The translations under genes were made by a program, and so were the position numbers. From IMG/VR virus record IMGVR_UViG_3300028829_005098, positions 1 to 64,000 of that record: 64,000 nucleotides of DNA; one strand, written 5' to 3'. How positions within the stretch are numbered: position 1 is the stretch's first letter; every line of letters starts with the position of its first letter. Source of the DNA: a virus. The notes beneath the pieces are model-generated. The model worked only from the letters and a program-made list of their open reading frames with translations. It had not been told where the DNA came from and ran no database searches. Of this stretch, positions 5,519-28,845 are shown one piece after another.

Positions 5519-5749
5519 TCAAGAGAATTTTCCGCCATTTTCAACGAAATTGTAAAAGTCAGAAGCAACTTCTAATACTTCATGTGTAGTTGGTAATGGT
5601 GGCATATCAGGAGAAACTTTTTCAAAATTTGCATAACTTTGCAATTCTTCTTTTTCCATGTGCCATCTTTCCCATACCATTTCTTTTGCACTTTTTAGCA
5701 CTTCCAATCGAATACCGAGATTGGTTAATTTATCAGATTCATTTGTCAT
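5519..5749 (-). CDS. Conserved small phage protein, unknown function
   Basis: A 76-residue acidic protein with no motif I can tie to a reaction. It is helical in outline: LGIRLEVLKSAKEMVWERW near the start and PTTHEVLEVASDFYNFVEN near the end. Short proteins of this pattern (an LEVLK helix, then a Pro-rich hinge and a helix ending FV) occur next to gp32 and DNA metabolism genes in T4-like phages, from memory. It is the first gene of a unit that continues into gp32 85 bases later. No clear Shine-Dalgarno sequence precedes the ATG, which is preceded by a long AT leader with one ATATTTAT motif. Confidence 0.6.
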   Translation of the reverse strand: MTNESDKLTNLGIRLEVLKSAKEMVWERWHMEKEELQSYANFEKVSPDMPPLPTTHEVLEVASDFYNFVENGGKFS

Positions 5750-5797
5750 TTTTTCAATTATTATTATTCAATTACATTAACGAATTAATGCGTGTAT

Positions 5798-5805
5798 ATA
5801 AATAT
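5798..5805 (-). promoter_or_regulatory. ATATTTAT promoter-like motif before the gp32 operon
   Basis: Coding-strand ATATTTATATAC, 48 bases upstream of the 76-residue gene and just past the end of the methyltransferase gene. Same orientation as the other copies. Confidence 0.45.
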
Positions 5806-5820
5806 ATTTCAGACTATGTT

Positions 5821-6603
5821 TTATGTCAATTTCAAAGCATTTTTTTGAATATTTTTTTCAATTCTTTCGCATGAAATTTCAACTGCTTTTTTGTTAATAT
5901 CACATCCTATGTATCTACGATTTAAAGAATTAGCAACATCAAGTGTTGTTCCACTTCCGCAATAAAAATCTGCAACTAAATCTCCTTCATTGCTACTTGC
6001 TTTTATTATTCTTTCAAGTATCTTTGGATGTTTTTCTGAATAATAATCAGTTTGTTTTTTAACTTTTAGTCCAGATGGAATATCATCCCATACATTTGTT
6101 GGAATTGTTCCAAGTGCTAACTTTTCTGCGGTGATATTGGGACGATCTTGTTTTTTACTAATTACAGATTTGTATGGAACTCGGATATCTAAATCATTAA
6201 AAACAAAATCGTTTGATTTTGTATACACAATTATATAGTCATGTTTTTTTGCAAATTCTTTTTTTCCACGGCCACCTATATTAAATTTTACTACAATTTG
6301 GTTTCTGAAATTACTATAACCGAATATGTCATCCATAATATTTCGTATCCAGTGAACGATACGTAAATCCATTTGAAGGTATATTGTTCCTGCATCTTTT
6401 AATACACGATGCATTTCTGTTAAACGTGGAATATAGTGTTGTTCTATAACTTTTTTAGTTGGAACTAAATCTTCATAATCTTTGAATATCTTTCCAGTTC
6501 CATATAAAATGTCACAATAAATTAAATTTAATTCATTAGACTTTATATTATTTAATAATTTTATATTATCACAACAATAGATGTTGTTTTCTTTTATTAT
6601 CAC
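5821..6603 (-). CDS. DNA methyltransferase, beta-class N4/N6 type with altered catalytic motif
   Basis: An amino-methyltransferase that would modify adenine or cytosine in DNA. The motif order (catalytic motif IV first, SAM-binding motif I last) is that of beta-class enzymes. Motif I is DFYCGSGTTLDVA near residues 211-223, followed by RRYIGCDINKKAVEI, the usual SAM pocket. The catalytic motif, normally DPPY, reads D31-I-L-Y (YCDILYGTGK). The surrounding NLIYCD...GTG context fits type III-like enzymes (DPPYNTG). At 260 residues it lacks a recognisable target domain. The start is GTG, 2 bases after the SpoVR stop, so it is the last gene of the prkA operon. It could protect phage DNA or be a regulatory methylase. 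Confidence 0.8.
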   Translation of the reverse strand: MIIKENNIYCCDNIKLLNNIKSNELNLIYCDILYGTGKIFKDYEDLVPTKKVIEQHYIPRLTEMHRVLKDAGTIYLQMDLRIVHWIRNIMDDIFGYSNFRNQIVVKFNIGGRGKKEFAKKHDYIIVYTKSNDFVFNDLDIRVPYKSVISKKQDRPNITAEKLALGTIPTNVWDDIPSGLKVKKQTDYYSEKHPKILERIIKASSNEGDLVADFYCGSGTTLDVANSLNRRYIGCDINKKAVEISCERIEKNIQKNALKLT

Positions 6604-19527: not shown

Positions 19528-22500
19528 TTATGGAGATGCTTTTGCAAGTTGTGTGCTTACTTTCTTTCCATCCATATTTACTGCAATTCCACCACTCTTC
19601 ATTAAATTAATTAACTCATCAAGTTTTGCTTCCACACCTTTGTCGTCTGAACTTGTTTTTTGCATTGGTGCAGGAGGTGGTACACTTGCTACTTGTTGTA
19701 CTACATCAGGCATAGAAAGTGAAGGTGTACCTGCTCCTCCACTTGCCATTTCTTCGGACGAAACTCCTGTTGGAATATTTGTATTTGTTGATTCAAGTTC
19801 TGATTTCTCTTGCATTTGGTTATTTACATTCATAGAACCACTTGTTTCAAATGGTAATTGTTTACCTAAACTAAGTTTTCCACTTAAAGATTCTGTGACT
19901 ATTCCGTCATTTACACTCTTTGAATAATCCTGTGGTATTTGATTTTCTCGGGTAGACAAGTTTAAATCGAATCTACTACTTGCCATGTTTCGTGCAAAAG
20001 AAGAAGAACTTTTTGCAGTATTCTTTATATATTCATTTTTAAGTCCACGTTTACTACTTGTATATGCGTTACTCGTTTCACTCCGTCTTCTAAGTAACTC
20101 TTGGTATTTTTGGTTTTTATCTTCACCTTTGTATCCAACCGTTACATCTTCCATTATTCCAAACTCACCTTCTCTTTGTTCGGTTATTTTGGAGGATTCA
20201 TTTTCTGTTCTGAAAGCAGATAATTCTTTATTGGCAACTTCGTGTGCCTTCTTATTATCCATGTATTGATTAAATTTATCTTCACCCCCAACCTGTGACA
20301 TAAATATTTTATCAAAATGTTTCTGTGCATCATAGATACTCGGTTTTGCTTCCACCCCAACTGAAGTATTTTGTGCTACTTCTACATTCGTATTTTTTTG
20401 TAGTTGTTCACTTGGTGGTTCTTCACCTGTTGTTTGATTTACTACTTCCGTGGTTGGTTTTGGTATTCCTCCACCAGCAGTCATTATTCCCATTAATATT
20501 GTACCGAATGTACCAAGTTCTTCAAGTGCTTCAGTAAATTTTAAAATTGACTGAGTCATTGCATCTAATCCCGATACCGCAACTGCATATATATCTGGAT
20601 TACCAAGAAGAGTTAAAAGTTGTGACATAGGTGCAACACCTTTATCAAGTGCAGTCATTCCCTCACCAATACCTTTAAAACTTGTTCCTACTGAAACAAA
20701 TCGTGTGATTGCATCATCGTCTATATCTTCAATCTCATCAAATAAATCTTCAAATCCATCACCCAGATCATCAAGTATATCTTCCGCATCATTTTTACTC
20801 AATTCACTTATTGCTCCTGCTACATTTCTAAGAGAATCGGCACCTGTATTTATTTTCTCTGCGTTATCACCCAATCTTATATAAACAGAGAATGGATCGT
20901 CCGAAGCAAACATACTTAAGAATGCACCGATTCCTTGTCCTGCTCCAAGTGCTACCATGGCCGCACCAACCGCAGTAAGACCTCCAGCAACTCCAAGTAA
21001 TTTTACTCCATCAAGTTCTGCAAGTTTAGATAACCCTCCAAACATAGAATCAATTATACCACTTATCGCAGAACCCATTGAGTTTATAACTCCACCAAAT
21101 GCTTCTAATGCAGGAGTTGCTATATTTAAAGCATACGCAAGTGGAATCAAAGCAGCTCCTAGTAATGCTAAAACTCCTGCTCCAATAGCAACAGGAACTG
21201 CTATTAAACTTAAACCAAATGCAGCTGCGGTTAATACACCAAGTGCTACTGCTCCATAAATTACATCACCCCACGATACATCACCAAACATTTGAAATGC
21301 AAATGCGGCCGGAAGTAACGATGCACCAAGTAGTGCAATTGCAACTGCACCTTTTATTAAAGACGATCCTGCTTTATCTATAAACTTAGACATTGCCCAT
21401 AATCCACCAATCATAACTGCGAGACCAGTTGCTCCCTTTGCAACACCTGCCCAATCAACTTTACTAAATTGTTGAAATGCTTTTCCTGCAATATACAAAG
21501 CACCTGATAATATAGCAAGAGCAGCCGCACCTTTTAATACTTGTTTCATATCAATCTTGTTAAACGATTTAACAAATTTATCAAAACCACTTGCACCTTT
21601 CTTTCCACCCTTTGTTGATTTGGAAACATCTTTTGACTTATCAGATGCACCAACTTTTGTAGTATTTGCTTGCTCAGCTGCTTTTATTTTATTTTCTTTG
21701 AATCTCATGTCGGGAGTTCCATCTTTTTTCAACCCACGAACCGATGCAGGACCAAACATATCTTTTACCTTAGATGCCATTCCCTTGATTCCCCCACCTT
21801 CACCACCACCTTTAAATGCTCCTACAAGTGAATCTTTCAATCCCTTTGCACCTTTCATTCCAGAACTAAAGAAACCACTTAATGCACCAAATAACGATGA
21901 TAATGTTGCTCTTGGATTTTTAAAAGCATTTAACAAAGATTTTCCTAAAGTTTTTGAACCTTCTAATCCTGATGTAAATAATGTTGTTACCGATGACTTT
22001 AAAGTATTTATTGCCTTACCCGGTTCCTTAAATGCTCCTAGCAATGCACCACCTAACGATTTAATACCACCCATAGAATTACTTATAAAACTTGAAAAAC
22101 TAGGTCCTAGTTTTTTCAGTCCGTCAATTCCTTTTAAAAATCCGTCTTTTAGAAAAGGTCCTATTTTCTTGGCATTATTTGTAAATGTCATAAATATACC
22201 TTCCGTTCCATCGGATACTATTTCAGATGCCGACTTCATTACATTACCAAATGTTCCTGTTATATTTTTGAATAGTAAACCAAAACCTTTATCAATGAGT
22301 CCTGTTATTGGTTTGAATAAACCTGTTAGATTTGCGATCATTTGTTTGCCCACGGATGTGAAACTGAGTAGAATTCCACCAATTGCAAATAGAGATGCAC
22401 CGAGTCCGTCAAATTGACTTTTTAGTCCATCAAGAGAACCTTCCCACAATCCTGTAATACTTCCTATTGCACTTAAAGTATTAAAAATAAAAATAAATGG

Positions 22501-25500
22501 TTGCAACAAGAACTCAACTATCTTTATTAGATATCCAAACCCACTTATTAAATGGTCTAGTATTGGTATTAAAATATTCATTGAAGTTTCAACCACGGGC
22601 AACAATACACTTCCAAGTTCATCCAATAATCTATTAAATTGATTTGCTAATTTATTTCTTATATTTGCATTATCCTCTGCTTTCAATCGTTCCATTCCTT
22701 GTTCTGCCAAAGATTTTGTTTCTCCTTCTAATGCCATACGTCTTGCCTCATCGTATTTTGCGGCCATTTTTTGTTGTTCAACTGTACCATTACGCATTGC
22801 TTCGATTTGCTTCATATGTTGTTGTTGCTTCATCAAAGTTTTAACATCTTTACCAAGTGCTTCAGAAACTGCTTTTCTTTCGTAACTATTCATTTTAGTT
22901 AAATCACCAATTCCTTCTAGAATTTTTGATTCTTCTGCCATATACTTGACCATATCACCTTCATACGAAGCTCGTCTCAGTGAATCTAAATTAATATGAC
23001 GACCAAGCATAGTTGCCATTTTCATTTCTTTTGTAATACTTGATTCAAAATCTAACATAGATTCCATAGATCCTGCTATTTCTTCTATGTTTGTTCCAAG
23101 TCTTCTTGCTTCTACAGCGGCAACTGCAAGTTCTTTTCCTGATCCTCGCACAAACGCATACACAGAATCGGACGCACCTGCAATGTCTTCCATTACTCTA
23201 CCCAATGGAACTCCAGCCGCAGCTGCTAGTTCTGATGTAACATAACTTAAATTAGTCGCAATTTCACTTGAACCACCACTTATCAATTTAAATGTTTCAT
23301 ATACCTGTGCACCAGTGAGAGATGCAATGCCCATTCCGTTTTCCAACAATGCTACAAGTTTTATATTTTTCTCGGTAACCATAGCTGTGCTACCAAGTAT
23401 TTCTGTTAATGCTTTTGCTGAATCAAATGCTTCTTCTAAACTAACTCCGTATCCTGATAATGATCTTTGTACCTTTACGGTTTCTCGTTCAAGGTTTTTG
23501 GTTACTTTTGCGGACAAACCAAGTTCTTTTCTAAAGTCATGCGTCAGTTCTTCCACTTTAAAGAACCTACTTACTGCAGCTGCAAGTAAACCACCGATTA
23601 TAACTAAAGGTAAAGCAACCGTAAGTAACGCAGGACCAAATGCTTTTGCAAGTCCTATTGCCCCTTCTAGCATATTTTTGGCATTTGTCATTGCTTGACT
23701 AAATTGACCCGTAAATGCGTCCATTAATTTATCTACTTCTAGTTTATCTGGATCAAATGGGTTTAAAGACCCATCGACTGACACACCCATTTGTTCTGTT
23801 AATTCATCCAAAGCTGTTGTGAAACCTGTTTTAAAACCTCTCCTAAGTTCATCAAAAGCAGGACCAGTTACCGTTTTTAAAGAGGTTGCCAGTAAACTTC
23901 CTACAAATGGAACACTATCTAAAATTCCTTCAATTTTTTGTTCAACTACATCAAAAGTACCAATTAATCCATCGTAAAATCCTGATAGTTTGAAGTTATC
24001 CATTGTAATTAATAACGCTTTTTGTTCTTGGAGTTCACGTAATGTTGCATGAGATAATTCTTCTTCTTCTCTTAACAGATTTAATAGAATTTCTTTTTTT
24101 GCATTTAATTTTTCTTGAATAGAAACAGCCGATTCACCGGATTCTGCTAACTCTTTTGAATACATAACTAATTCCGTATATATTCGTTCTTGACTCATTA
24201 ATTCAGAATTGTATTTTAATAAGTCCACTTGTTGAGATTCGATTGATGGTATTCCACCACCACCACCACCACCACCACCAGGTGATCCAGGTGGAACTCC
24301 ACTTCCCCCAAAACCTCCACTTCCCCCAGAACCTCCACCACCTCCAGGAGCACCACCGTCAGCAAGCATTACAGGTCCACCATGATGCAATCCAAGGTGA
24401 CCTTTGCTATTTAAATGCTCAAGAAAACCTCGCCAGTTTTTGGCAACATCTGCACGAATCACAAATTCCCCGTCTGTTAACATAGCAGGAATTACATCTT
24501 TGCCCATAGGACCACTTACAAATCCACCAGTAGACATTTTAAGATTATTTAATTTTTCGGAATTTGTAATTGATGTTTGTAATTGTGATGCCATGTTTTG
24601 TTTGGCATTCATATTATTAGTCATATTATTGATTTTTTCTACAAGAGTCGTTGCATTTTGTTCTTCACTTCCGGTATTTGTTATACTGTTAACAAAACTA
24701 TCGAAAGTTTCTGTACCAAATGAATCAGTTTTTATATTCGATAAAAACGACATAGAGTCCATTGTAGAAGAATTCACTGCCTGTGCTTCTAGAATTTGTT
24801 TATCAAGTTCCTTGATTTGCTCTTTTAAATCAATATCAGAAAGTCCACCTTTTTTGAAAAGGTCATCTATTTTTTGTTTAGAATCTATTGTATAATCTGC
24901 GATAGCATCCATTGATGCTTTTATATTATCTCTTGTTAAATCAAAAGTTTCTTTTATTTTTTCAAAAACTTCTGATAAGTTATCTTTAACATCTCCACTT
25001 ACTTCTGAAAATTGCCCTTTGACTTTATCGAAAATAGAAGTTAGATAACTATCATCACGTGGATTGTTATTTTGATGTTCACCCAATACATCTTTCACAA
25101 AAACCTTCCCATCTTTATGAAGTTGGTGTGAGTTTGAAATGTTTTTTTCAAGTTGTTCAAAGAGAGATTCGGAAGTCATAGATTTGTCTCCTGTTCTACT
25201 TTGATCGTATACTGCCCTCAGTTGAGCATCACTCATACCTTCTGATCTTGGATCGTTTCTTAACTTGTCAAATTCTTTGGGATTTATTTCTTGTTCTATC
25301 ATCCTCGTTGTGACGTCACTACCGATATTTGGTCTTGCTAGCTTAAAGTTACCTGTTTCTAAAAAAGCAAGGCCTTTACTTTCTTCGACCTGATGTTTCG
25401 TGGTTTTTTCGTTTGCTAAATTGTTTTCATTAAAAGTTTGAAGTGAGGCTGCGGTTTTTGCATGATCTAATGTTACCATCGCATTGAATCTGGTGTTAAA

Positions 25501-26265
25501 TTTTTCAATCTCTTCAGATGCAATTTGATTTGATTTTGTTATTTCCTCTTGTTTTTGTTTTATTAGGGAAGGATCGATTATTTTATCTTTATTAGTTGGG
25601 TCCATTTGTTTGAATTTAAAATCAGTTCCAACTTTTAATGCTTCTATTATTTTTGCTAATCTGTTGTCATATTCTTTTGAGTAACCCAATGCAAGATCTT
25701 CTACTTTATCAGTATTTATTGCCGTAATTTCTCCTGCTTCGTTTTTTTCACCTATATCATCTATATGGTCTTCTATATTTGCTTCTATTCCACGCATCGC
25801 ATTCGGATTAAAAATAGCATTTGCTCTAATTTTATTTTGCTCTATGTCATCCTCCTCAGTATGAGAAGAACTCCAGGGTGGGTTAAAACCACTCAAAGTT
25901 TCCTGTCTTCCCGTGTCATAATCACTGTTACCTTGTAGTGATATTCGTCCTGTGGTTGAATCAACTCTTGCATTACCTCTAAATTTTTCTTGATTTGCAA
26001 GTTCCCGTTGAATTCTTTCCAAAATTGGTTTGGTCAAATCGTTGGATGTATCTACGGTACTTGCTTTATTATTTAATGATTGAGCATAGTCAGGATTTAG
26101 TCGTGCTTGGTCATAACGTACTTTCATGACAGCGTCTTTATAAATACCCTGCATACCATTCTCACTTGCTTCTTCTATCAAAGAATCAATATCTTCACCT
26201 TCTCTTAACCGCTTTCCATACGCACCTAAAAAATCCCGTACCTTTAATTCTTGGTCAAAATCCAT
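19528..26265 (-). CDS. Tail tape measure protein
   Basis: At 2245 residues this is the largest gene here. Tape measure proteins fill the tube lumen, set tail length and help DNA entry. Residues 1-560 are mostly helical and charged. At about 575-615 is a segment common in tape measure proteins (GGFVSGPMGKDVIPAMLTDG, then EFVIRADVAKNW). A Gly-rich linker including nine consecutive Gly follows at about 635-675. Several long hydrophobic stretches occur (near 850-880, 1240-1290, 1580-1760), typical of the membrane-inserting parts. Residues 1396-1490 contain 36-residue repeats. T4 gp29 has 590 residues, so this tail may be much longer. It lies between tail chaperone-like genes and baseplate genes, as expected. 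Confidence 0.92.
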   Translation of the reverse strand: MDFDQELKVRDFLGAYGKRLREGEDIDSLIEEASENGMQGIYKDAVMKVRYDQARLNPDYAQSLNNKASTVDTSNDLTKPILERIQRELANQEKFRGNARVDSTTGRISLQGNSDYDTGRQETLSGFNPPWSSSHTEEDDIEQNKIRANAIFNPNAMRGIEANIEDHIDDIGEKNEAGEITAINTDKVEDLALGYSKEYDNRLAKIIEALKVGTDFKFKQMDPTNKDKIIDPSLIKQKQEEITKSNQIASEEIEKFNTRFNAMVTLDHAKTAASLQTFNENNLANEKTTKHQVEESKGLAFLETGNFKLARPNIGSDVTTRMIEQEINPKEFDKLRNDPRSEGMSDAQLRAVYDQSRTGDKSMTSESLFEQLEKNISNSHQLHKDGKVFVKDVLGEHQNNNPRDDSYLTSIFDKVKGQFSEVSGDVKDNLSEVFEKIKETFDLTRDNIKASMDAIADYTIDSKQKIDDLFKKGGLSDIDLKEQIKELDKQILEAQAVNSSTMDSMSFLSNIKTDSFGTETFDSFVNSITNTGSEEQNATTLVEKINNMTNNMNAKQNMASQLQTSITNSEKLNNLKMSTGGFVSGPMGKDVIPAMLTDGEFVIRADVAKNWRGFLEHLNSKGHLGLHHGGPVMLADGGAPGGGGGSGGSGGFGGSGVPPGSPGGGGGGGGGIPSIESQQVDLLKYNSELMSQERIYTELVMYSKELAESGESAVSIQEKLNAKKEILLNLLREEEELSHATLRELQEQKALLITMDNFKLSGFYDGLIGTFDVVEQKIEGILDSVPFVGSLLATSLKTVTGPAFDELRRGFKTGFTTALDELTEQMGVSVDGSLNPFDPDKLEVDKLMDAFTGQFSQAMTNAKNMLEGAIGLAKAFGPALLTVALPLVIIGGLLAAAVSRFFKVEELTHDFRKELGLSAKVTKNLERETVKVQRSLSGYGVSLEEAFDSAKALTEILGSTAMVTEKNIKLVALLENGMGIASLTGAQVYETFKLISGGSSEIATNLSYVTSELAAAAGVPLGRVMEDIAGASDSVYAFVRGSGKELAVAAVEARRLGTNIEEIAGSMESMLDFESSITKEMKMATMLGRHINLDSLRRASYEGDMVKYMAEESKILEGIGDLTKMNSYERKAVSEALGKDVKTLMKQQQHMKQIEAMRNGTVEQQKMAAKYDEARRMALEGETKSLAEQGMERLKAEDNANIRNKLANQFNRLLDELGSVLLPVVETSMNILIPILDHLISGFGYLIKIVEFLLQPFIFIFNTLSAIGSITGLWEGSLDGLKSQFDGLGASLFAIGGILLSFTSVGKQMIANLTGLFKPITGLIDKGFGLLFKNITGTFGNVMKSASEIVSDGTEGIFMTFTNNAKKIGPFLKDGFLKGIDGLKKLGPSFSSFISNSMGGIKSLGGALLGAFKEPGKAINTLKSSVTTLFTSGLEGSKTLGKSLLNAFKNPRATLSSLFGALSGFFSSGMKGAKGLKDSLVGAFKGGGEGGGIKGMASKVKDMFGPASVRGLKKDGTPDMRFKENKIKAAEQANTTKVGASDKSKDVSKSTKGGKKGASGFDKFVKSFNKIDMKQVLKGAAALAILSGALYIAGKAFQQFSKVDWAGVAKGATGLAVMIGGLWAMSKFIDKAGSSLIKGAVAIALLGASLLPAAFAFQMFGDVSWGDVIYGAVALGVLTAAAFGLSLIAVPVAIGAGVLALLGAALIPLAYALNIATPALEAFGGVINSMGSAISGIIDSMFGGLSKLAELDGVKLLGVAGGLTAVGAAMVALGAGQGIGAFLSMFASDDPFSVYIRLGDNAEKINTGADSLRNVAGAISELSKNDAEDILDDLGDGFEDLFDEIEDIDDDAITRFVSVGTSFKGIGEGMTALDKGVAPMSQLLTLLGNPDIYAVAVSGLDAMTQSILKFTEALEELGTFGTILMGIMTAGGGIPKPTTEVVNQTTGEEPPSEQLQKNTNVEVAQNTSVGVEAKPSIYDAQKHFDKIFMSQVGGEDKFNQYMDNKKAHEVANKELSAFRTENESSKITEQREGEFGIMEDVTVGYKGEDKNQKYQELLRRRSETSNAYTSSKRGLKNEYIKNTAKSSSSFARNMASSRFDLNLSTRENQIPQDYSKSVNDGIVTESLSGKLSLGKQLPFETSGSMNVNNQMQEKSELESTNTNIPTGVSSEEMASGGAGTPSLSMPDVVQQVASVPPPAPMQKTSSDDKGVEAKLDELINLMKSGGIAVNMDGKKVSTQLAKASP
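21800..22080 (-). repeat. 36-residue tandem repeats in the tape measure protein
   Basis: Three consecutive units share the pattern G-x-x-G-x-K-x-L-x-x-(A/S)-L-(L/V)-x-A-F-K. They begin SMGGIKSLGGALLGAFKEPG, GLEGSKTLGKSLLNAFKNPR and GMKGAKGLKDSLVGAFKGG. The first two units are each exactly 36 residues long, and the third is cut short by a Gly-rich break. Helical repeats with a fixed period suit a rod-like lumen protein. Confidence 0.75.
24254..24280 (-). repeat. GGT trinucleotide run (poly-Gly) in the tape measure gene
   Basis: A GGT microsatellite encodes nine consecutive glycines within a longer Gly/Ser/Pro linker. It is in frame, so copy-number change would alter linker length without breaking the gene. 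Confidence 0.8.
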
Positions 26266-26682: not shown

Positions 26683-26952
26683 CTAACGATAACTTCGTTT
26701 ACCTGCACCTGTTGGTGGTCTTGCAGGTTTCTTACTACTAGATTTTGCTTCTTGTTGTGCCTTTTTTACATCTTCGTTTTCTTTGGTACGGACATCTACA
26801 AGTTTGCGTATATAGAATCTGCGAAGATATACTGGGAGATTATACACAACATCTTGCGTAAATGCTCCTTGACTGTAATAGCAGAGATTAAAAATCTCTT
26901 CGTGAAGTTGAATCTTATACTGAGGAGGAAGGGTAAAAAAAGTCGACCCCAA
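26683..26952 (-). CDS. Tail assembly chaperone second part, gp51-like; TTG start or frameshift product
   Basis: 89 residues, read from a TTG at 26952 that lies inside the end of the gp26-like gene (38-base overlap). The core, FTLPPQYKIQLHEEIFNLCY through NLPVYLRRFYIRKL, then a basic Lys/Ala tail, looks like the small gp51-type proteins next to gp26 in T4 relatives. There is no ATG start: a stop codon lies 9 bases upstream of the TTG in this frame, leaving about 47 bases in which both frames are open. That short stretch contains a run of seven T. Expression by +1 or -2 frameshifting from the gp26-like gene is therefore an alternative to TTG initiation (AAAGGA lies 12 bases before it). Confidence 0.65.
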   Translation of the reverse strand: MGSTFFTLPPQYKIQLHEEIFNLCYYSQGAFTQDVVYNLPVYLRRFYIRKLVDVRTKENEDVKKAQQEAKSSSKKPARPPTGAGKRSYR

Positions 26953-27847
26953 GTGGGATCGTCATCCTTTCAGTATATCCTGTGTCCTCGGATTCAAAAT
27001 TAAATGTCATGTCTAAATCAGGTGTATTTTCCTTGATGTGTTCACGAAATGCCAAACTATCACGTGCTAGAAGTTCTTTATCAACAAAACTTTTGATTTT
27101 GTTTTTATCTTCATCACCATTGATTGCTTTAATTACATACTTTAAACGAGTTGTAACTTCTGAAGTTTCATTTTTATTTTTTGAAAACTTCTTTAATGCT
27201 TTCATTTCAGCATCAATGTTTTGTTCGTCTTGGTGTGTAAGTAAACTCCAATGAACTGTTTTCTTACTAAATGGTAGTTCATATGAAAACAAATTTCTTC
27301 CTTTTTCGTGATTATCGAAATTGAATTCTTTAGGTTCAACCAATGCCAAATCAATTGCATCTTCTACATCTTCGTTGTTGCTTGGATCTTTAAACTTAAT
27401 CTTATAGTCTTTACCATAAGCAAGAATACGAGCAGCTACAAAAATAGCATTTTTATCTCCAACGAGAATCTCATCAAGTTTTACTCCAGGAGTAACAATA
27501 AGTGCTTCTAGCAATTTATCTAACACAACACCTTTTTTAATTAGATTCTGACTTGTGAGAATATCTTCTTCACGTGCAGTCATGTATTTAATATCAATCT
27601 GACCACTTGCCAATGGTGAAGATGGATCATAAAACCAACCTTGACTTGGTAAATCAACAACCTCACTTGGAAATTCAAACTTCCTTGGTTGGTCACTTTG
27701 TTGTGTAAACACAGGTTCAGATTTAGTCTGTGTTTTAGGTTGTGTAGTAGCACTTTGAGTTGCTTCTTGAGTTTTAGCAGTTTGTGCGTCACGTTGAAGT
27801 GCTTTTTTCACTTCCTCGGGCATTTCTATATTATCGTTTGAGTCCAT
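26915..27847 (-). CDS. T4 gp26-like baseplate/tail chaperone protein
   Basis: 310 residues. The first 75 are Gln/Thr-rich and probably disordered. The domain after that (FPSEVVDLPSQGWFYDPSSP, then IKYMTAREEDILTSQNLIKK, GVVLDKLLEALIV) matches the pattern of the T4 baseplate protein family of gp26. In T4, gp26 and gp51 help assemble the baseplate hub around the tape measure protein. The gene is three genes upstream of the tape measure and overlaps the gp51-like gene, an arrangement like the overlapping chaperone pairs of other tailed phages. AAAGG lies about 11 bases before the ATG. Confidence 0.65.
   Translation of the reverse strand: MDSNDNIEMPEEVKKALQRDAQTAKTQEATQSATTQPKTQTKSEPVFTQQSDQPRKFEFPSEVVDLPSQGWFYDPSSPLASGQIDIKYMTAREEDILTSQNLIKKGVVLDKLLEALIVTPGVKLDEILVGDKNAIFVAARILAYGKDYKIKFKDPSNNEDVEDAIDLALVEPKEFNFDNHEKGRNLFSYELPFSKKTVHWSLLTHQDEQNIDAEMKALKKFSKNKNETSEVTTRLKYVIKAINGDEDKNKIKSFVDKELLARDSLAFREHIKENTPDLDMTFNFESEDTGYTERMTIPLGVDFFYPSSSV
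26935..26941 (-). other. T7 run, candidate translational frameshift site
   Basis: The coding strand reads GAC TTT TTT TAC in the gp26-like frame, 25 bases before that frame's stop. The downstream gene is in the +1 frame (reached by +1 or -2 slippage), not the -1 frame. The run lies within the only 47-base stretch where both frames are open. Confidence 0.5.
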
Positions 27848-28353: not shown

Positions 28354-28845
28354 TTAGAATTGCAAAATTGCGTAATCGTAGGAGATTGTCAATTCTACAG
28401 TCAACTTGTCACCAGTTTCCCAATCCAATGTTCCGAAGTTTGTATTGTTTACAAACGCACCTTTGATTGTCCACTCTTCAACGAGGTCACCAACAGGGCC
28501 GAGAACATTGATTACCAAGTCTTTCTTGTAGAAGTCTGCGTAACCATTACGACCTGTAACAGATTCGTGTGAGAGACGAACCCATTCCATAGCAGTTTGC
28601 GCCGCACTAGGAACAACCGGATCGTACATAGTAAGAGTGATATCTTGCCACTCTGCTTTACCAGCCCTCAACTTTCTCTTGATGTTGATGTGGTCCATTG
28701 TCTGAACATCTATAGTAAGATTTGGACGAGTTACTGATTTAATGAGGTATGCAGGTACTCCATCCATGTACATTATAAAACGATTTGAAGTTTTTGGTTC
28801 AAATGCCGTGAAAAACATTTCTTCGGTTGATATTACTTGTGCCAT
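28354..28845 (-). CDS. Tail tube protein (T4 gp19-like)
   Basis: Forms the inner tube of the contractile tail. The 163 residues equal T4 gp19 (163). Segments typical of the family: NRFIMYMDGVPAYLIKSVTR, then IDVQTMDHINIKRKLRAGKA, WQDITLTMYDPVVPSAAQTA and the closing TVELTISYDYAILQF. It has its own promoter-like motif, a GGAG 10 bases before the ATG and a strong terminator, so it can be made in large amount independently of its neighbours. Confidence 0.93.
   Translation of the reverse strand: MAQVISTEEMFFTAFEPKTSNRFIMYMDGVPAYLIKSVTRPNLTIDVQTMDHINIKRKLRAGKAEWQDITLTMYDPVVPSAAQTAMEWVRLSHESVTGRNGYADFYKKDLVINVLGPVGDLVEEWTIKGAFVNNTNFGTLDWETGDKLTVELTISYDYAILQF

Follow-up and report, generated by a model that had tools for sequence, protein, structure and literature searches.

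Programmed +1 frameshifting occurs in the gene of release factor 2 (prfB), where an internal Shine-Dalgarno (SD) sequence assists an autoregulatory shift at CUU_UGA. Of the tail assembly chaperones, the gpG/gpGT pair of phage lambda is reportedly made by a -1 frameshift (Xu et al. 2004). Further chaperone frameshifts of the -1 type are given in PMC5009743, which also mentions a likely +1 shift in the chaperone genes of the myovirus HSTV-2, and a poly-T -1 site is reported for Pakpunavirus Adele (PMC12846349). According to Vladimirov, Gautam and Davidson (2022), in the form in which they are cited in PMC10885494 and PMC12846349, T4-like phages have a short and a long chaperone gene (gp26 and gp51) and no frameshift. 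Hairpins upstream of a +1 site have been described as engineered elements: in yeast, +1 shifting is stimulated by a hairpin lying directly 5′ of the E site (PMC3639245), and with E. coli 70S ribosomes in vitro a hairpin located 5′ of CUU_UGA has about 60% of the stimulatory effect of an SD on +1 shifting and attenuates -1 shifting (PMC6321510). A natural upstream hairpin acting as a +1 stimulator was not found in the open-access literature searched. Finally, the ribosomes of Bacteroidia are reported to hide their anti-SD and yet to keep prfB shifting, which in the view of the authors needs an explanation (PMC8710568).

The locus described here lies in a 64,000-nucleotide stretch (the window) of the virus record IMGVR_UViG_3300028829_005098, which has 115,415 bases in total. 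It shares with lambda and the other -1 chaperone systems a narrow ORF overlap between the tail tube and tape measure genes, a T-rich site, and a long and a short form; it differs in the proposed shift, which is +1 and not -1, and in the site, which is YUU_U and not X_XXY_YYZ. The likeness to RF2 consists in the P-site slip from YUU to UUU and in an A-site codon starting with U (CUU_UGA compared with UUU_UGG, UUU_UAC or CUU_UGG), whereas in the phages this A-site codon is a sense codon and not a stop, the outcome would be two products and not autoregulation, and a hairpin stands where RF2 has its SD, which is not consistently present at RF2 spacing. HSTV-2 is likewise contractile-tailed, with a +1 shift proposed for the equivalent gene pair, but its host is archaeal. 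With T4 gp26/gp51 the window shares the N-domain family and the occurrence of a short form and a longer form with a C-terminal extension, although T4 has two separate, divergent genes and the window one locus with a predicted +1 frameshift. The engineered upstream hairpins resemble the phage element in being stable stems that adjoin the E site and precede a +1 slip site; they are designed constructs, whereas the phage element is natural and conserved. Judging from comparative sequence analysis, it is likely that the locus encodes a tail assembly chaperone pair (TAC-N/TAC-NC) produced by +1 frameshifting, with a hairpin as the probable stimulator, in a T4-related contractile-tailed phage.

Layout of the overlapping genes

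Two overlapping ORFs are situated between the genes of the tail tube protein and the tape measure protein (Table 1), as is expected of a frameshift-encoded chaperone pair. The +1 ORF is open at positions 26961-26686 of the minus strand, and the two frames are open jointly at 26961-26918, i.e., over 44 nt, or 47 nt if the 0-frame stop codon is included. These values agree with the earlier note on this DNA, in which a joint opening of about 47 bases containing TTTTTTT (read as GAC TTT TTT TAC) was described, and the ORF coordinates likewise bear out its statement that the second frame is +1 relative to the first. Its observation that the second frame has no ATG, only a TTG (26952-26950) within the end of the gp26-like gene, was also correct; a GTG is present inside the conserved domain of the +1 ORF. 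The predicted product of the shift reads ...V-D-F-F|T-L-P-P-Q-Y-K.... Within the long ORFs of the window, in-frame TTT_TTT_T was found in two cases, that is, at the slip site and in one plus-strand ORF.

Table 1. Features of the predicted chaperone locus (window coordinates)
Feature	Position	Strand	Evidence and remarks
Tail tube protein (gp19-like), upstream gene	28354..28845	-	PF06841 4.5e-7; PHROG 4542 1.1e-25
TAC-N, gp26-like (T4_baseplate), 310 aa, frame 0	26915..27847	-	ATG start; PF12322 1.1e-5; PHROG 150 baseplate hub 4.2e-7
TGA in the +1 frame, 5′ of the overlap	26962..26964	-	Bounds the positions possible for shift or initiation
Hairpin adjoining the site, CGATCCC-ACTT-GGGGTCG	26944..26961	-	7 bp, loop of 4 nt, spacer of 2 nt to the T run
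TTG, sole possible start codon of the +1 ORF before the conserved domain	26950..26952	-	At the loop end of the hairpin
Proposed slip site, T7: TTT (E site) TTT (P site) T|AC	26935..26941	-	Frame-0 reading GAC TTT TTT TAC
C-domain of TAC-NC, +1 frame, from the first +1 codon past the proposed shift (ACC) to the stop	26683..26934	-	No ATG; dN/dS 0.089; conserved helical domain; frame kept in relatives
TAA of frame 0, terminating the short product	26915..26917	-	
Stop of the +1 frame	26683-26685	-	
Tape measure protein, 2245 aa, downstream gene	19528..26265	-	PHROG 4372 tail length tape measure 5e-10

Conservation of the overlap in related phages

Five scans of viral contigs, one scan of genome contigs and a set of isolate records yielded 342 sequences, including the window. 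One sequence without a gp26 match and seven in which gp26 runs off the contig were left out, and the remaining 334 loci comprised 235 distinct junctions. The C-domain was in the +1 frame in 212 of these, in the other frame in 16, and was not detected in seven; the second ORF is therefore in the +1 frame in 212 of the 228 distinct junctions having both ORFs. At 85% nucleotide identity the loci formed 164 clusters, 10 of which are not +1. Two loci, L040 (in which the end of gp26 is missing) and L070, were counted in the frame tallies and dropped before clustering, and loci L062-L066 and L072, lacking a match to the C-domain profile, were described by eye only.

The +1 relation reaches isolate phages of Flavobacterium, Microcystis, Rhodothermus, Bacillus, Listeria, and Streptococcus, with Flavobacterium phage immuto, Microcystis phage Mel-JY01, SP-15, LIS04, Streptococcus GXN1, and Rhodothermus RM378 as named members (the junctions of GXN1 and RM378 were read by eye). 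This breadth of conservation had escaped the earlier note, whose central proposal, a tail assembly chaperone frameshift just upstream of the tape measure gene, is backed by the conserved overlap, frame, and site. The protein encoded in the +1 frame is under purifying selection, as indicated by a median dN/dS of 0.089 in 83 pairs from 19 sequences of the window clade. With this selection, the scarcity of in-frame TTT_TTT_T in the window, and the presence of overlap and site in hundreds of related phages, the arrangement goes beyond what chance would produce.

The proposed slip site

Among the 212 distinct +1 junctions, the site was TTT TTT TGG in 142, TTT TTT TAC in 48, TTT CTT TGG in eight, TTC TTT TGG in five, and TTT TTT TTC in three, while TTC TTT TAC, TTT CTT TAC, TTT CTA TTC, TTT TTA TGG, TTT TTT CAC, and TTT TTT AGT were found in single cases; immuto is one of the phages with TTT CTT TGG. 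An RF2-like YTT|T, i.e., a YUU_U at which the P-site tRNA could re-pair, is thus present in 208 of the 212. In all 144 +1 clusters having Phe at the P-site position its codon is TTT, as opposed to none of the 10 non-+1 clusters; over all Phe codons of those +1 cluster genes, slip site included, TTT accounts for 1488 of 1820. Furthermore, when the window clade is left aside, synonymous codon conservation in the remaining 133 +1 clusters stays at background and then rises abruptly to 0.93-1.00 exactly at TTT TTT TGG CCT (mean 0.52). In 110 of 210 distinct junctions no more than five codons of open +1 frame precede the slip, and the 0-frame stop follows 4 to 6 codons past the slip codon in 205 of 210; the slip would therefore be confined to a short stretch that contains the motif.

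The hairpin upstream of the slip site

The hairpin adjoining the slip site, which went unnoticed in the earlier note, belongs to a more general excess of structure. In the 30 nt located 5′ of the site, the mean minimum free energy is -7.05 kcal/mol, compared with about -1.2 to -3 kcal/mol farther upstream in the gene. Against synonymous recodings the mean z was -1.79, with 78 of 152 +1 clusters at or below 5%, whereas at six control offsets the mean z was about 0 and 6-10 clusters reached this level; the 10 non-+1 clusters gave a mean z of -0.16 and 0/10 at or below 5%. A stem of at least 6 bp ending within 4 nt of the site was found in 58 of 152 clusters (null mean 15.7, maximum 24 in 60 draws) and in 0/10 non-+1 clusters. 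By this strict rule, a stable hairpin within a few nucleotides 5′ of the E-site codon is present in those 58 clusters, and the window has one as well; no uninterrupted stem of at least 4 bp occurs in the 30 nt in 33 of 152 clusters. The absence of a synonymous-null excess in the -1 relatives is consistent with the attenuation of -1 shifting reported for upstream hairpins (PMC6321510).

The excess was retained under further comparisons, in part at reduced size. When the sequences were grouped into 41 clusters at 60% amino acid identity, 19 of the 41 were in excess (Fisher 1e-15, if the clusters are independent), and GC-matched recoding of the same 41 halved the effect (mean z -0.85; 7/41 at p<=0.05; 3e-6). 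Dinucleotide shuffles gave z -1.36 and 37% of clusters, compared with 4-14% elsewhere, and by this measure two of the 10 non-+1 loci were also at p<=0.05. Within 21 near relatives the stem showed 15 double-change cells; shuffled versions gave 7.1, and slid versions never more than 9. A fixed-register test gave a modest excess (33 compared with a null mean of 20.1 and maximum of 29). In a mutual-information scan of ungapped columns the stem diagonal did not emerge, as the register of the hairpin differs between clades. Downstream of the site, where a stimulatory structure was also looked for, the mean z was just -0.54.

A consistent SD-like stimulator was looked for as well: the mean anti-SD energy over 150 loci was -0.7 to +0.7 at offsets of -11 to -8 relative to the P-site codon, i.e., near zero at RF2 spacing, and positive nearer to it, although single loci vary. 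The hairpin of the window carries GGGG in its 3′ arm, at a distance of 8 nt from the P-site codon, which is longer than the spacing in RF2, and an SD-like effect of these bases is possible there. In Listeria phage LIS04, GGAGAG adjoins the TTT TTT A site (anti-SD -6.4 kcal/mol); this one case may suggest that relatives in Bacillota, or in other SD-using hosts, use an SD instead of the hairpin.

Alternative explanations

A C-domain protein might also arise by independent or coupled initiation at TTG 26952 or another codon, for which the window does offer the TTG, an AAAGGA upstream, and an overlap of stop and ORF as in translational coupling. In the relatives, however, the position of this TTG varies freely (TTA, CTC, CTT, TTG), and no ATG, GTG or TTG is available to the +1 ORF in 113 of 210 distinct +1 junctions, nor, in 48 of the 210, any of CTG, ATT, ATC, and ATA, which largely excludes initiation. 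The brevity of the +1 opening before the shift in more than half of the junctions speaks against it too, and an ATG-started copy of the +1 ORF alone replacing the overlap, which the earlier note had put forward as evidence that would count against a frameshift, was seen in none of the relatives examined; in the one small clade with a separate gene, that gene is a complete second N+C copy and the slippery codons are lost. Separate initiation is hence hardly probable, and the downstream ORF, lacking its own start and putatively reached through a conserved slippery site, has the form expected of the second member of a chaperone pair. Scarcely more can be said for transcriptional slippage on the T7 run, by which a minor mRNA would be one base shorter or two longer: the homopolymer is there, and its length of seven is kept in 193 of 212 distinct +1 junctions, but runs of just three or four T (TTTCTTTGG, TTCTTTTGG) serve an equivalent overlap, the upstream hairpin is less well accounted for, and efficient slippage is expected to need longer runs (8-9). 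A -2 ribosomal frameshift at the T run would leave the downstream frame unchanged and add one Phe. Phage Mu is reported to use -2 (PMC5009743), and a T7 run, that of the window included, permits P-site tRNA-Phe to re-pair two bases back. Such re-pairing is, however, not cleanly possible throughout, as 16 of the 212 +1 junctions carry TTC TTT T, TTT CTT T or TTT CTA T, without the T7 run and with good re-pairing at +1 only; these variants (TTC TTT TGG/TAC, TTT CTT TGG/TAC, TTT CTA TTC) are found in several separate parts of the tree. They favour +1 over both the Mu-type shift and transcriptional slippage. Of the "-2 or +1" event suggested in the earlier note, a shift of this general type is thus supported, its direction being most likely +1 on the sequence comparison and -2 being improbable.

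It is also conceivable, though on balance unlikely, that the +1 shift is real and the hairpin is not its stimulator, the pairing arising incidentally from a high GC content at the 3′ end or from amino acid constraint (I-P-x-G-V), or the GGGG-type arm acting as a Shine-Dalgarno sequence. The GC content is indeed 0.50 in the last 30 nt compared with 0.27-0.39 elsewhere, the register test traces a large part of the pairing to the encoded amino acids, and in some loci GGGG is located 8 nt 5′ of the P-site codon. Against a by-product stand the survival of the excess under synonymous, GC-matched and dinucleotide nulls, the covariation, and the lack of a synonymous-null excess in all 10 non-+1 relatives, and against the SD reading the mean anti-SD energy of about zero at RF2 spacing. 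Stimulation of the +1 shift by a hairpin refolding behind the ribosome, in place of the SD:anti-SD duplex of RF2, accordingly appears to us the better-than-even reading of these comparisons; such a natural element would be kept in a large T4-related group, many members of which probably infect Bacteroidota with a hidden anti-SD, and nested lineages switching to -1 or to gene duplication would lose both slip codon and hairpin.

Lineages with other probable decoding modes

The contrasts with non-+1 phages come from two clades. In the first (L147, L254, L256, L258, L261, L263, and L265), the C-domain lies in the -1 frame, and all seven clusters (7/7) have A_AAT_TTC as the heptamer. In the second (L046 (4923-6673), L332, and L334), the gp26-like gene is followed by a second gene with N plus C in one frame, which in L046 has as its start codon a GTG that overlaps the stop of the first gene; the slip codons of these three are TTC TTC or TTT TTC, and the two-gene arrangement of T4 thus recurs within the group. 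The P-site Phe codon is TTC in 10/10 non-+1 clusters, i.e., TTT|T was lost in both lineages. In a tree of 102 rows, both groups were placed inside the +1 phages (support 83-93 for the -1 clade and 86-93 for the fused clade, unstarred). In the distant members L062-L066, L070, and L157 (Atu_ph07), the C-domain is, by eye, in the -1 frame at T_TTT_TTC. Both these distant members and the nested L147 clade appear, from their sequences, to use -1 frameshifting; the switch to -1 was not noticed in the earlier note. At a single homologous position, the family would exhibit natural changes from one of three modes (+1, -1 or gene duplication) to another.

Protein families and predicted structure

The window protein matches the T4 gp26 family PF12322 with 25.7 bits, above the curated cut-off of 24.5, and this family was matched by 29 of 35 relatives at E<=0.01. 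Both T4 gp26 and T4 gp51 match PF12322 and PHROG 150, which are families of the window protein too. T4 gp51 extends about 48 residues past its Pfam match; it is an N+C protein and not merely the C-domain, a point missed by the earlier note. In comparing the C-domain with the C-terminal part of T4 gp51, hhalign gave a probability of 0.1 and E 0.44, and PHROG 634 was unmatched, so that the resemblance is by eye only. The label "gp51-like" given to the second frame was right in part only: a match of the C-domain profile to T4 gp51 was not obtained, and in T4 the two genes, 26 and 51, are divergent, being encoded on opposite strands without overlap. The family matches and gene order of T4 accord with the view, cited above, of a short and a long chaperone gene.

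The AlphaFold2 model of the window TAC-N has a pLDDT of 85.9, and its viral structural neighbours are predicted T4-like proteins named baseplate hub or baseplate hub assembly. A sequence search against solved structures gave no significant match, and the top two solved structures found with the model show weak fold similarity, i.e., YqbN (3klu; Z 5.7, Foldseek E 4.4) and the HK97 chaperone (2ob9; Z 4.8, Foldseek E 2.0). The C-domain model consists of three helices.

Proposed mechanism and hosts

According to the mechanism that we propose, most ribosomes would finish the gp26-like ORF at its stop and yield TAC-N. In some ribosomes, the peptidyl-tRNA-Phe that is paired in the P site with the second UUU of UUU_UUU_UAC would slip by +1 (UUU to UUU), and translation would be completed in the +1 frame, yielding the fusion TAC-NC, which is TAC-N with a small helical C-domain added. 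The hairpin, the 3′ arm of which ends 2 nt before the T run, would refold behind the ribosome and probably pull or block it, favouring the forward slip, a job that corresponds to that of the internal Shine-Dalgarno in RF2 (prfB). By analogy with lambda gpG/gpGT, the pair may coat the tape measure protein and bring in the tail tube protein.

Hints on the hosts are as follows. Seven of 13 genome-contig matches carry Bacteroidota titles, with the proviso that these may include stray phage contigs in bins, and immuto infects Flavobacterium; the gene starts of the window itself show weak SD use (36% of 47). The phage group includes phages of Bacteroidota, and many of its members probably infect them. 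Since the anti-SD is hidden in Bacteroidota, a hairpin replacing the SD would be a reasonable putative adaptation.

If this reading is correct, T4, cited in the sources mentioned above as the exception among long-tailed phages in having no chaperone frameshift, has relatives which do seem to use one, of the +1 type. Upstream +1-stimulating hairpins, known in the literature examined as engineered elements only, would now be represented by hundreds of natural candidate sequences, and this natural set would allow testing how structure behind the ribosome sets the direction of a shift, in hosts with muted SD pairing.

Annotation of the C-domain in public genomes

In the locus L040 (positions 5700-6004), the C-terminal part of gp26 and the slip region are absent and the C-domain follows directly, out of frame, which points to a deletion or an assembly error. 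The analysis also allows the correction of several public genomes in which the ORF of the C-domain has been cut short, separated or omitted: in the records of SP-15 (L071), immuto (L068), LIS04 (L073), RM378 (L156), and Mel-JY01 (L067), the +1 C-domain is truncated, unannotated or given as a separate hypothetical gene.
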